Of a DNA stretch of 64,000 bases, positions 26,055 to 37,016 are shown piece by piece. The number at the start of each line of letters is the position of its first letter. Positions within the stretch are counted from its first letter, which is position 1. Source of the DNA: an uncultured bacterium (lineage in GTDB: Bacteria; Bacteroidota; Bacteroidia; Bacteroidales; Bacteroidaceae); contig CAMBOH010000001.1 in assembly GCA_945869305.1 (NCBI GenBank), positions 1 to 64,000 on the forward strand, given 5' to 3'. The notes under the pieces were generated by a model that worked only from the letters and a program-made list of their open reading frames with translations, made no database searches and was not told the origin of the DNA. The position numbers and the translations under genes were made by a program.

Positions 26055-28823
26055 TCAGTGGGCCTCTAACCAGTTGGCCCCTGTGCCGCAGTCAGCCACC
26101 AGCGGCACGCGCATGGCGAAGGCCTGCTCCATTTCCTCCACCACAATGCGGCGCACCAGCTCCAGCTCTTCGGGAAAGACCGAAAAGTTAAGTTCGTCGT
26201 GTACTTGCAGCAGCATTTTCGAGCGGATGCCCTCGCGCGTAAAGCGTTGGTCAATGCGTATCATCGCCACCTTGATGATGTCGGCCGCGGTGCCCTGGAT
26301 GGGAGCGTTCACCGCATTGCGTTCGGCATAGCCCCGCACCACGGCATTGCGCGACACGATGTCGGGCAGATAGCGGCGGCGGCCGAACTCGGTGACGATA
26401 TACCCCAGTTCACGCGCCTTTTCTACGCTCTGTGTCATATACTCCCGCACCTTCGGATAGGTGGTGAAGTAGTTGGCAATCAGCTCTTTGGCTTCCGTGC
26501 GGCTCACCTCCATGCGTTCGGCCAGGCCAAAGGCCGATATGCCGTAGATGATGCCGAAGTTTGCCGTCTTGGCCTTGCGCCGTTCGTCGCGCGAAACCTC
26601 CTCAATGGGCTTGTGGAAGACGCGGGCCGCCGTAGCGGCATGGATGTCGCGGCCTTCGCGGAAGTCCTGCACCAGGTGCTCGTCCTGGCTCAGGTGTGCC
26701 ATGATGCGCAGCTCGATTTGGGAGTAGTCGGCCGACAGGAAGAGGCAGCCGTCGTCGGGTATGAACGCCTTGCGTATCTCTCGCCCGTCGTCTCCCCTGA
26801 CGGGAATGTTCTGCAGGTTGGGATTCGACGACGACAATCGGCCAGTAGCCGTCACGGCCTGGTTGAAGGAGGTGTGGAGCATGCCCGTGCGGGGGTTGAT
26901 CAGCTTGGGCAGTGCTTCCACGTAGGTGCTGAGCAGTTTCTTTAGGGCACGGTGAGCCAGTATTTTGCCCACGATGGGGTGTTGGGCACGGAGAGCTTCG
27001 AGCACCTCTTCGCCCGTGGCGTACTGTCCGCTTTTCGTCTTCTTCGCCTTGTCGCTCAGTTTCAGTTCGTCAAATAGCACCTCGCCCACCTGTCGCGGTG
27101 AGGTGAGCAGGAATGTGTGTCCCGCCAGCTGGAATATCTCGTCTTCCAGCTGCTCCATGCGCTGCGTGAAGTGGTGGCCGATTTCGCTGAGGGCCGCCAC
27201 GTCGAGCCTCACCCCGTTCATTTCCATCTTGGCCAGTACGGGCATGAGCGGCATTTCGATTTGCTCAAACACCCTCATCAGTCCGTTCTCTTCGAGCTCG
27301 CGCTTCAGGGGGGCCATCAGTCTCAGGGTCACGTCGGCATCCTCGCAGGCATAGTCGCGGATGTCGGCCGGAGCGAGTTCAGCCATGTTGCGTTGTTTCT
27401 TGCCCTTGGGTCCGATGAGCGCATCGATGTGTATGGTTTGGTAGTTCAGGTAGATTTCGGCCAGGTAGTCCATGTTGTGCCTCAGTTCGGGCTGCACCAG
27501 GTAGTGGGCCAGCATGGTGTCGAAGAGGGGAGGGCTGAGGTGGATGCCGTAGCGGCTCAGTACCGTGAGGTCATACTTCAGGTTCTGTCCCACCTTCAGT
27601 TGGGTGTTGCTCTCGTAGAGTGGCTTGAAAATGTTGACCATGCGTTGTGCCGCATCCGTTTCACGTGGAACGGCCACGTACCAGGCTCTTCCGCCGGCCA
27701 CGGCAAAGCTCAATCCCACGAGTTCGGCATCAATTGCCTCGATGGAGGTAGTTTCTGTGTCAAGGCTCAGGGTGTCGAAAGTCAATAATTTGTCACACAA
27801 ATCTTTTGCTTCCGATTCATTTTCAACCAAGAAGTACTCGTGTGCTACGTCTTGGAGCGTTTTGTGGTTCGTTTCTTTTTCCGCTTCTGGCTGGTCGGCT
27901 GGATTTACGTCAAACAGCGGGCCGTAATCCGTAACGTTTTTTTGCACTAAGCCGTCCTCCTCGTCCATCTTCTTGATGAGGCTTCGGAATTCCAGATTTT
28001 CGTAAATGCGCCTCAGGGCCTGCTTGTCGGGTTCGTGGAGCTTGAGCGCGTCGAGGTCGAGACCGATGGGCACGTCCGTCTTGATGGTCACCAGGAATTT
28101 CGAGAAACGGATGGCCTCGGCGTTTTCTTCCACTTTTTTGCGCATGGCCCCCTTCAGCTCGTCGGTTCTGTTCAGCATCTCCTCGACCGTGCCGAACTGG
28201 CCGATGAGCTTCACTGCTGTCTTCTCGCCCACGCCGGGACATCCCGGCACATTGTCAGCCGCGTCGCCCATCAGGGCCAGCAGGTCCACCACCTGGGTGG
28301 GGGATGTCAGCCCGTACTTGTCGCAGACCTCCTGCGGTCCGAGCACTTCGGCCGGTTTGCCGCCGTTGCCCGGCCGGTGCATCCACACCCCCGGCGCTAC
28401 CAGCTGTGCGTAGTCCTTGTCGGGCGTCACCATGTGAACCTCCAGTCCCGCCTCGCGGCCCTTGGCTGCCAGCGTGCCAATCACGTCGTCGGCCTCGAAG
28501 CCCGGTGCTTCGAGGATGGGGATGCGGAAGGCGCGTATGAGGTCCTTGATCACAGGGACTGCCCAGCGGATGTCCTCGGGTGTGGCTTCGCGCTGCGCTT
28601 TGTATTCGGGGTAAGCCTCATGGCGGAAGGTGCCGCCCGCAGGGTCGAAGGCAATGCCCAGGTGGTCAGGGTGGTGTGTGCGCAGCACCTCCTGCAACGT
28701 ATTGACAAAGCCGAACACAGCCGAGGTGTTCTGGCCTTTCGAGTTGATGCGCGGACTGCGAATGAGCGCGTAGTAGGCGCGGTAAATCAATGCGTAGGCA
28801 TCGAGCAGATATAAGGTTTGCAT
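26055..28823 (-). CDS. polA: DNA polymerase I
   Basis: MQTLYLLDAYALIYRAYYALIRSPRINSKGQNTSAVFGF...; C-terminal LSADYSQIELRIMAHLS, RRKAKTANFGIIYGISAFGLA, LLQVHDEL. Confidence 0.98.
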   Translation of the reverse strand: MQTLYLLDAYALIYRAYYALIRSPRINSKGQNTSAVFGFVNTLQEVLRTHHPDHLGIAFDPAGGTFRHEAYPEYKAQREATPEDIRWAVPVIKDLIRAFRIPILEAPGFEADDVIGTLAAKGREAGLEVHMVTPDKDYAQLVAPGVWMHRPGNGGKPAEVLGPQEVCDKYGLTSPTQVVDLLALMGDAADNVPGCPGVGEKTAVKLIGQFGTVEEMLNRTDELKGAMRKKVEENAEAIRFSKFLVTIKTDVPIGLDLDALKLHEPDKQALRRIYENLEFRSLIKKMDEEDGLVQKNVTDYGPLFDVNPADQPEAEKETNHKTLQDVAHEYFLVENESEAKDLCDKLLTFDTLSLDTETTSIEAIDAELVGLSFAVAGGRAWYVAVPRETDAAQRMVNIFKPLYESNTQLKVGQNLKYDLTVLSRYGIHLSPPLFDTMLAHYLVQPELRHNMDYLAEIYLNYQTIHIDALIGPKGKKQRNMAELAPADIRDYACEDADVTLRLMAPLKRELEENGLMRVFEQIEMPLMPVLAKMEMNGVRLDVAALSEIGHHFTQRMEQLEDEIFQLAGHTFLLTSPRQVGEVLFDELKLSDKAKKTKSGQYATGEEVLEALRAQHPIVGKILAHRALKKLLSTYVEALPKLINPRTGMLHTSFNQAVTATGRLSSSNPNLQNIPVRGDDGREIRKAFIPDDGCLFLSADYSQIELRIMAHLSQDEHLVQDFREGRDIHAATAARVFHKPIEEVSRDERRKAKTANFGIIYGISAFGLAERMEVSRTEAKELIANYFTTYPKVREYMTQSVEKARELGYIVTEFGRRRYLPDIVSRNAVVRGYAERNAVNAPIQGTAADIIKVAMIRIDQRFTREGIRSKMLLQVHDELNFSVFPEELELVRRIVVEEMEQAFAMRVPLVADCGTGANWLEAH
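27657..27672. promoter_or_regulatory. parS-like site (degenerate) inside polA
   Basis: CGTTTCACGTGGAACG; inner GTTTCACGTGGAAC matches 13/14 of GTTTCACGTGAAAC. Confidence 0.5.
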
Positions 28824-28879
28824 GTCGTGAAAAGTGTTTGTCTTGGTGTGAAACGGCTTCTTTTTACAACCGTACGCGA

Positions 28880-28887
28880 CAAAATTA
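28880..28887 (-). promoter_or_regulatory. -7 box TAATTTTG of polA
   Basis: CAAAATTA on + strand, divergent to the polyprenyl synthetase promoter. Confidence 0.5.
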
Positions 28888-28920
28888 CGCAAAAGCCCGC
28901 TTAACTAACCGAATAATTCG

Positions 28921-30195: not shown

Positions 30196-30310
30196 TGTGG
30201 ATAATGTGGATAAGATTATCACACAGACGGAAAAGTCGTCGCAAATCGCCCGAAAACGGCTAAAAACGCAGCATCCCTGCCGCCAATTGCGGTGGGGATG
30301 CTGTGGATAG
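30196..30310. other. DnaA-box cluster, candidate oriC element
   Basis: TGTGGATAA at 30196-30204 and 30205-30213 (both perfect reverse complements of TTATCCACA, zero spacing); TGTGGATAG at 30302-30310 (8/9); 15-bp hairpin 30269-30303 between them. Confidence 0.65.
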
Positions 30311-30349: not shown

Positions 30350-30475
30350 GTGCCGAGTTGTTTTTCCTACGTGCCGCTTAGAAAAATCTATGTGCCGAGT
30401 TGTTCGTTCTACGTGCCGAGTTGTTTTTCCTACGTGCCGCTTGGAAAAATCTACGTGTCGGGTTGTTCGTTCAGA
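30350..30475 (+). repeat. Tandem repeat family B, 21-bp period, 6 units (two 63-bp higher-order units)
   Basis: GTGYCG units start at 30350, 30371, 30392, 30413, 30434, 30455; unit types GTGCCGAGTTGTTTTTCCTAC, GTGCCGCTTAGAAAAATCTAT, GTGCCGAGTTGTTCGTTCTAC. Confidence 0.97.
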
Positions 30476-32533: not shown

Positions 32534-34354
<1,821 letters not shown>

Positions 34355-34408: not shown

Positions 34409-34945
34409 CTATTCTTCGAGTGTGAGCAGCGTCGTGATGTCGAGTTCCTCGCCCAGGAACTTGCGTCCTTCGAGACCTTCCATTTTCAGCTCAATGAGGA
34501 AGTTTATGTAGGTTTGCTTCGGGCAGAACTCCTGCACGAGCTTGTACACCGCCAGCATGGAGCCGCCTGTAGCGAGGAGGTCGTCGTGTATGAGCACCAC
34601 ATCGTCGGCAGTGATTGCATCGGTGTGGATTTCGATGGAATCGGTTCCGTATTCCTTCTCGTAGGTAGCCCGTCGCGTGTCGGCAGGCAGTTTACCGGGT
34701 TTGCGCGCCATGATGAATCCGGCACCCAGTTTCTCGGCCAGCATCGCTCCCATCACGAAGCCCCGGCTCTCGATGCCTACCACCTTGGTGATGCCTTTGT
34801 CAGCGTAGAGGCGGACCAGTTCTCCGAGCATTTCACGTATACATGCAGGGTTCTTGAAGAGTGTGCTCACATCCTTGAACTGTATGCCCGGCTTGGGGAA
34901 GTCTGGGATGTTCCGCAGGTTGTCTAACAACAAATTAGTGTTCAT
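34409..34945 (-). CDS. apt: Adenine phosphoribosyltransferase
   Basis: NIPDFPKPGIQFKDVSTLFKNP...VVGIESRGFVMGAMLAEKLGAGFIMARKPGKLPADT...VLIHDDLLATGGSM. Confidence 0.96.
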   Translation of the reverse strand: MNTNLLLDNLRNIPDFPKPGIQFKDVSTLFKNPACIREMLGELVRLYADKGITKVVGIESRGFVMGAMLAEKLGAGFIMARKPGKLPADTRRATYEKEYGTDSIEIHTDAITADDVVLIHDDLLATGGSMLAVYKLVQEFCPKQTYINFLIELKMEGLEGRKFLGEELDITTLLTLEE

Positions 34946-34979
34946 GTTTATCTTGGTTTTGAGATGAAAAGACAGGGTT

Positions 34980-34995
34980 TGTTTCACGTGAAACA
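34980..34995. promoter_or_regulatory. parS: parS centromere-like site (perfect consensus)
   Basis: TGTTTCACGTGAAACA, identical to the 16-bp ParB/Spo0J parS consensus; intergenic, between apt and mnmG. Confidence 0.88.
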
Positions 34996-35138
34996 CGAGC
35001 CAAATGCCGGTAAAAACGGCCTGATTCGTGCTTTAAAGGGGCTTTATCGCAGTTTTACTTAGAGCTTTTCTCTAAGTGAAGGAGCTGAATGTGGTCGGAT
35101 GGGGCCGTACTGTCGGAGAACTGTGCGCTACACGGTGC

Positions 35139-37016
35139 TTAGCGTCCGAGTAACACCAACAACACACTGATGTCGCTGGGCGACACTCCGGGGATGCGTC
35201 CGGCCTGTGCCAGGGTTTCGGGGTCGATGGCCGTGAGTTTTTGTCGCGCTTCGGTGCTGAGTTGTGTGATTTCGTCGTAGTGGAAGTGTCCGCGTATTTT
35301 GATGTCCTCCAACCGCTGCATCTTGTCAGCCAAGGCCCGTTCGCGGGCGATGTAACCGTGGTACTTCATTTCGATTTCGGCCGCTTCAATCGTTTCTTCG
35401 CGGTCAAGCCCGATGCAGTCCAGACATTCACGCAACGCTTCGATTTCGTGCGACAGATTATGGAGCGACACTTGCGGGCGGTTGATGAGGTCATACAGTT
35501 TGCAGCCGCCTTGGAGTGGGGTAGTGCCGATGCTTTCGAGGAGGGGGTTGATGCTTGCTGCCTTGACAGGATGGTTCCGGCAGAAGTCGATGATGCGGGC
35601 CACATGGTCGCGCTTGGCGTGGAAGCGTTCGGCGCGTTCGCGGGTGCAAAGGCCCAGCCGTTCGGCGTGGGGCGTGAGGCGCATGTCGGCATTGTCTTGT
35701 CGCAGCAGGATGCGGTATTCAGCGCGCGAGGTAAACATGCGGTAAGGTTCGTCCACGCCTTTCGTGACCAAATCGTCGATGAGAACGCCGATGTAGGCCT
35801 CGTCGCGTTGCAGTGTGAAGGGAGCGGAGCCACTGCACTTCAACGCAGCGTTGATGCCTGCCAGCAGCCCCTGGCCCGCAGCCTCCTCGTAGCCCGTTGT
35901 GCCGTTTACCTGACCCGCGAAGAACAGGCCGTCGATTTTCTTCGTTTCCAACGAGTGATGCAACTGGGTCGGGTCGAAGAAGTCATACTCGATGGCATAC
36001 CCCGGACGATACACGCGGATGTCGCGAAAGCAAGGCATGCGCTTCAGGGCTTCGATTTGCACATCCATCGGCAGACTCGATGAAAAGCCGTTCAGGTAAA
36101 GCTCGTTTGTGTCGAGACCTTCGGGCTCCAGAAACAGCGGATGGTGGTCGCGGTCGGGAAAGGTGACAATCTTCGTCTCGATACTCGGACAGTAGCGCGG
36201 GCCAATGCTCTGGATCTGTCCGTTGTAGAGCGGTGAATCCGCCAGTCCGGAGCGCAGCACCTCGTGTACGTCGGCATTCGTCTCACACGTCCAGCACGGC
36301 AGCTGGGGCAAGGGACGCAGCGGGCTGATGTAGGAAAAGCGGTGGAAGTCCGTTTCGCCTGGTTGTTCCGTCATTTCCTCCAAGTGCACCGAGCGTTTGT
36401 CAATGCGCACGGGCGTACCCGTCTTCATGCGGTCGGAACGTATGCCCAGCGCTTCGATGCTTTGCGTCAGGAAGGCCGCGGCCGGTTCGGCACAGCGTCC
36501 GCCGGCCACTTGGCGACGGCCCACGTGCATCAGTCCGCGCAGGAAGGTGCCCGCCGTGATTACCACCGCGCGGGCCAGCAGGGTAGCCCCCCAGACGGTG
36601 CGCACGCCTGTCACCGTGTTCTGCTCGGTCAACACTTCGGCCACTTCGTCCTGCCATAGATACAAATTGTCGGTGTTTTCGAGGCGTTTCCGCCAGGTGG
36701 TGATGAATCGGGCGCGGTCGCACTGCGCACGGGGGCTCCACATGGCCGGCCCTTTCGAGCGGTTCAACATGCGGAACTGTATGGCCGTGGCATCGGTCAC
36801 TTCGCCCATGCCGCCGCCCAGCGCGTCCACTTCGCGCACGATCTGGCCCTTGGCAATGCCGCCCACAGCAGGGTTGCAGCTCATCTGGGCAATCTTGTTC
36901 ATGTCCATGGTGACCAGGCAGGTCTTCGCTCCCATGCGTGCTGCTGCCTGAGCAGCTTCGCAGCCCGCATGGCCAGCACCTACTACCACCACGTCGTATT
37001 TAAAAACAGTACTCAT
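35139..37016 (-). CDS. mnmG: tRNA uridine-5-carboxymethylaminomethyl(34) synthesis protein MnmG (GidA)
   Basis: FKYDVVVVGAGHAGCEAAQAAARMGAKTCLVTMDMNKIAQMSCNPAVGGIAKGQIVREVDALGG... Confidence 0.98.
   Translation of the reverse strand: MSTVFKYDVVVVGAGHAGCEAAQAAARMGAKTCLVTMDMNKIAQMSCNPAVGGIAKGQIVREVDALGGGMGEVTDATAIQFRMLNRSKGPAMWSPRAQCDRARFITTWRKRLENTDNLYLWQDEVAEVLTEQNTVTGVRTVWGATLLARAVVITAGTFLRGLMHVGRRQVAGGRCAEPAAAFLTQSIEALGIRSDRMKTGTPVRIDKRSVHLEEMTEQPGETDFHRFSYISPLRPLPQLPCWTCETNADVHEVLRSGLADSPLYNGQIQSIGPRYCPSIETKIVTFPDRDHHPLFLEPEGLDTNELYLNGFSSSLPMDVQIEALKRMPCFRDIRVYRPGYAIEYDFFDPTQLHHSLETKKIDGLFFAGQVNGTTGYEEAAGQGLLAGINAALKCSGSAPFTLQRDEAYIGVLIDDLVTKGVDEPYRMFTSRAEYRILLRQDNADMRLTPHAERLGLCTRERAERFHAKRDHVARIIDFCRNHPVKAASINPLLESIGTTPLQGGCKLYDLINRPQVSLHNLSHEIEALRECLDCIGLDREETIEAAEIEMKYHGYIARERALADKMQRLEDIKIRGHFHYDEITQLSTEARQKLTAIDPETLAQAGRIPGVSPSDISVLLVLLGR

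Follow-up and report, generated by a model that had tools for sequence, protein, structure and literature searches.

Between apt and mnmG in a 64,000-nucleotide stretch of Bacteroidaceae DNA (the window) lies a 16-bp palindrome matching the ParB-binding consensus. This raises the questions of whether it is the chromosomal centromere, parS, and, if so, what a centromere serves at this address. The features discussed below are as follows.

34980 to 34995, no strand: parS, an exact TGTTTCACGTGAAACA palindrome; the primary mnmG-linked site, conserved in relatives
35139 to 37016, minus strand: mnmG (gidA), curated MnmG/GidA HMM; the gene that parS consistently accompanies across the phylum
34409 to 34945, minus strand: apt, adenine phosphoribosyltransferase, curated HMM; start codon 34 bp from parS
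32534 to 34354, minus strand: uvrC, curated UvrC HMM; member of the conserved block
26055 to 28892, minus strand: polA (DNA polymerase I), which hosts the second site
27657 to 27672, no strand: second parS-like site, CGTTTCACGTGGAACG, inside polA, sharing the 14-bp core consensus GTTYCACGTGRAAC
30196 to 30310, minus strand: DnaA-box cluster in the deoC–ispB gap, with two adjacent exact TTATCCACA boxes plus CTATCCACA; the best in the window

The palindrome and its position beside mnmG

The sequence at 34980–34995 has no mismatch to the consensus and is a perfect palindrome, as the sequence-only reading had it, and curated HMMs confirmed both neighbours. The distances given in that reading, 145 bp to the end of mnmG and about 35 bp to apt, were close; the measured spacers are 143 bp on the side of the mnmG stop codon and 34 bp on the side of the apt ATG. 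An alternative GTG start at 34996, in an open frame, would place parS inside apt. It was rejected because homologues share the ATG, and their spacers, 33 or 34 bp long or of some other length, break the GTG frame. Apt similarity places the host in the Bacteroidaceae, near Prevotellamassilia and Alloprevotella. The genome-wide count that had been proposed as a check showed that the motif is not scattered: this is the sole site with two or fewer mismatches in the draft genome (2.01 Mb, 126 contigs, 75.8% complete), a count from which further parS sites may be missing because the draft is 76% complete.

A site within one mismatch of parS was found in 77 of 101 family genomes, mostly once or twice per genome. 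In the remaining family genomes checked, the mnmG–apt gap usually contained a variant with two or three mismatches, such as CGTTCCACGTGAAACA or TGTTCCACGTGGAACA. When up to three mismatches were allowed, 106 of 117 mnmG–apt loci carried the site, with 12 of its 16 positions invariant, so that the site is conserved with apt/mnmG synteny. The block mnmG-parS-apt-uvrC-dtd-mazG-deoC-ispB-polA is kept in six family genomes. At the same threshold the site was present in 28 of 29 mnmG loci drawn at order level and in 27 of 29 drawn at phylum level (55/58 together), compared with 1 of 58 shuffled loci. In loci of approximately 4.8 kb it lay downstream of mnmG in 41 cases and upstream in 14. Both sets comprise the best 30 matching loci per search, and distant members are therefore under-sampled. 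The site itself is ordinary, being of a well-known parS kind. What is less expected is that, judged from these comparisons, its mnmG-linked address is kept in nearly every Bacteroidota genome sampled, also in the order whose SMC condensin has apparently been lost.

Relation to the replication origin

The sequence-only reading had assigned the site to an ori-proximal domain. In all four complete relatives (G082, G005, G009 and G027, the last the least clean) GC skew switches within about 0–45 kb of the parS beside mnmG. With raw skew, the switch falls close to the site in G082 and G005; after correction for coding strand the switch is near the site in G082 and G009 and, less cleanly, in G027, and the corrected estimate for G005 is noisy. 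The opposite skew switch is roughly diametric in G082, G009 and G027. The assignment thus holds for these relatives; for the host's own genome, skew in the window, which lies on a draft contig, tracks gene orientation. In-window GC skew was rejected as proof of an origin, being explained by coding-strand composition.

The parB and dnaA genes lie hundreds of kilobases from the site in both genomes measured. In G082 parS is about 403 kb from parB and about 918 kb from dnaA, distances that agree with the published statement that a large separation between oriC and dnaA is common in Bacteroidetes (PMC4755523). The DnaA-box cluster at 30196–30310 is a weak oriC candidate: no counterpart was seen in G082 and G005, where the deoC–ispB gap is only about 70 bp, and no DnaA box was found in the portion seen of a close relative (L135). 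Adjoining these boxes, at 30350–30474, are about six 21-bp direct repeats resembling GTGCCGAGTTGTTTTTCCTAC, with no exact match in the other loci compared.

The cognate ParB and competing explanations

The earlier proposal depended on the presence of parB, which was found in single copy beside parA. This gene, on another contig, encodes the one ParB in the genome that scores above the family cut-off, and no second ParB or Noc was found in the draft. The adjacent ParA carries a KGGVGKTT motif. The ParB can be aligned with ParB and Noc proteins of known structure, and the KNR and QGHARAL motifs in these alignments correspond to the parS-type residues R173 and G201. Arg173 and Gly201 contact parS and are reported to be absolutely conserved in ParB orthologues, whereas Noc has Gln and Arg at these positions (PMC7383237). 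At positions 179 and 184 (same numbering) the protein has Tyr and Lys. Lys184 is Noc-like and counts against a parS reading, although both positions vary among ParBs. The Noc-binding site is a related palindrome bound by a ParB paralogue, but it differs from parS at the positions that residues 173 and 201 recognise; the Arg/Gly pair therefore predicts, from the protein sequence, recognition of parS.

The site resembles the chromosomal ParABS systems of Bacillus subtilis, Caulobacter and Pseudomonas in having a 16-bp palindrome (the B. subtilis consensus is TGTTNCACGTGAAACA, tabulated in PMC7022226), in being origin-proximal, here in relatives, and in being accompanied by a single parAB pair with a parS-type ParB. 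It differs from them in that parAB and the site are unlinked (about 400 kb apart in G082), in that there are usually one or two sites, and in that the order lacks detected Smc-ScpAB. Taken together, the identity to the consensus, the conservation and position of the site, the parS-type residues of its cognate ParB and the origin proximity in relatives indicate that the site is almost certainly a chromosomal parS centromere.

The palindrome might also regulate apt, through ParB bound at parS or through the mRNA leader, and so have its distance from the start codon fixed. Of 45 non-redundant Bacteroidaceae, 26 have 33 or 34 bp between parS and the ATG, whereas across all 45 the gap from mnmG to parS varies from –2 to 143 bp. 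In Pseudomonas aeruginosa, ParB is reported to repress promoters beside parS3 and parS4 (PMC5521831). Against this, 82 of 83 loci had no TAnnTTTG promoter close to the site, no sigma70-like promoter was recognised beside it, and the leader RNA folded no better than shuffled sequences. Several loci with no apt match still have the site between mnmG and uvrC, and outside the Bacteroidales, where apt is absent from the locus, the site flanks mnmG. The spacing may instead be inherited, with the needs of translation setting the leader length. On the sequences compared, regulation of apt seems unlikely. The spacer itself (34946–34979 in the window) is nearly constant in length among relatives and nearly random in sequence, the 33-bp spacers showing a median identity of 42% against 35% expected from composition.

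Dimeric regulators typically bind palindromes such as this 16-mer, and an intergenic one could be the operator of an unrelated transcription factor that happens to resemble parS. Such an operator would not be expected to occur once or twice per genome, linked to the origin and identical to the cross-phylum ParB consensus, nor to adjoin different genes in other lineages and to lie inside coding sequence as well, and we regard this explanation as very improbable. A chance match, already judged very unlikely in the sequence-only reading, is scarcely credible, with two matches in the window at up to three mismatches against 0.22 expected from shuffles and a position conserved across the phylum.

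As a parS centromere, the site would most likely be recognised by the ParB of the single parAB pair located elsewhere on the chromosome. Bound ParB would load as a CTP-dependent clamp and would spread over the mnmG-apt-uvrC-polA region, aided by the second site in polA. The ParB–parS complex would give ParA a handle by which newly copied origin regions are pulled apart.

Intragenic sites and the apparent absence of Smc-ScpAB

The site beside mnmG stands as the primary parS; the second site, inside polA, had been overlooked. On the coding strand this site reads GTT CCA CGT GAA ACG, encoding VPRET at codon 408, and the core is found at the identical polA codon position in five related genomes (the window, G043, L136, L140 and L145). 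In G043, TCA replaces CCA, so that the residue is altered and the parS consensus retained; other family polA genes encode different residues at this position. It therefore looks, from these alignments, as if the polA site is kept for its DNA, shared ancestry of the five genomes being an alternative.

A parS core is also found within uvrC, at about amino acid 162 in window numbering, in Muribaculaceae and relatives (L187, L188, L196, L204 and L209); these five loci share the identical codons GTT TCA CGT GAA ACA, encoding VSRET. In many Prevotella loci a second site lies in the apt–uvrC gap. No core-consensus sites were found in 1.36 Mb of origin-distal stretches from four complete genomes, a scan that is less informative for G009, whose own mnmG-linked site departs from the core, or in 400 kb of other contigs from the host genome.

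parS usually recruits the SMC condensin. No SMC was detected in 29 of 29 Bacteroidales genomes (12 from the family, judged by the cut-off, and 17 others from the order, judged at E 1e-30), and ScpB was absent from all 12 genomes searched for it. Positive controls for both searches were detected, and SMC was strong in 11 of 11 genomes from other classes of the phylum, in one of them as two pieces below the cut-off. Within the same class, SMC was undetected in four of six genomes (class and phylum samples G102–G159; order samples G162–G213). The searches, which covered SMC and ScpB, suggest that Smc-ScpAB has been lost in Bacteroidales. The partner needed by a parS acting as an SMC loader is thus apparently absent, and parS here therefore probably serves ParA-driven segregation rather than SMC loading. 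The earlier picture was correct as to parS and incomplete in leaving this apparent absence unmentioned.

These results extend work on two gut Bacteroidetes studied by Hi-C, Bacteroides caecimuris and Muribaculum intestinale, for which PMC10197239 reports no known condensin homologue. There, as in the relatives studied here, the site lies near the skew-defined origin and dnaA is an unreliable origin marker; the passages of that paper considered here make no mention of a fixed mnmG-linked position or of intragenic sites. A combined proposal, in which a fixed mnmG-linked centromere without Smc-ScpAB in Bacteroidales, lineage-specific coding-sequence sites in polA and uvrC, and a 33–34 bp spacing that couples apt expression to ParB loading all hold together, is quite unlikely as a whole.

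The mnmG–parS pair is a stable landmark for the origin region in Bacteroidota drafts, in which dnaA misleads. The Bacteroidales offer a natural test of the role of ParB/parS after the apparent loss of Smc-ScpAB, and ParB/parS without Smc-ScpAB bears on the question, raised in PMC10197239, of how the chromosome arms of Bacteroides become aligned.
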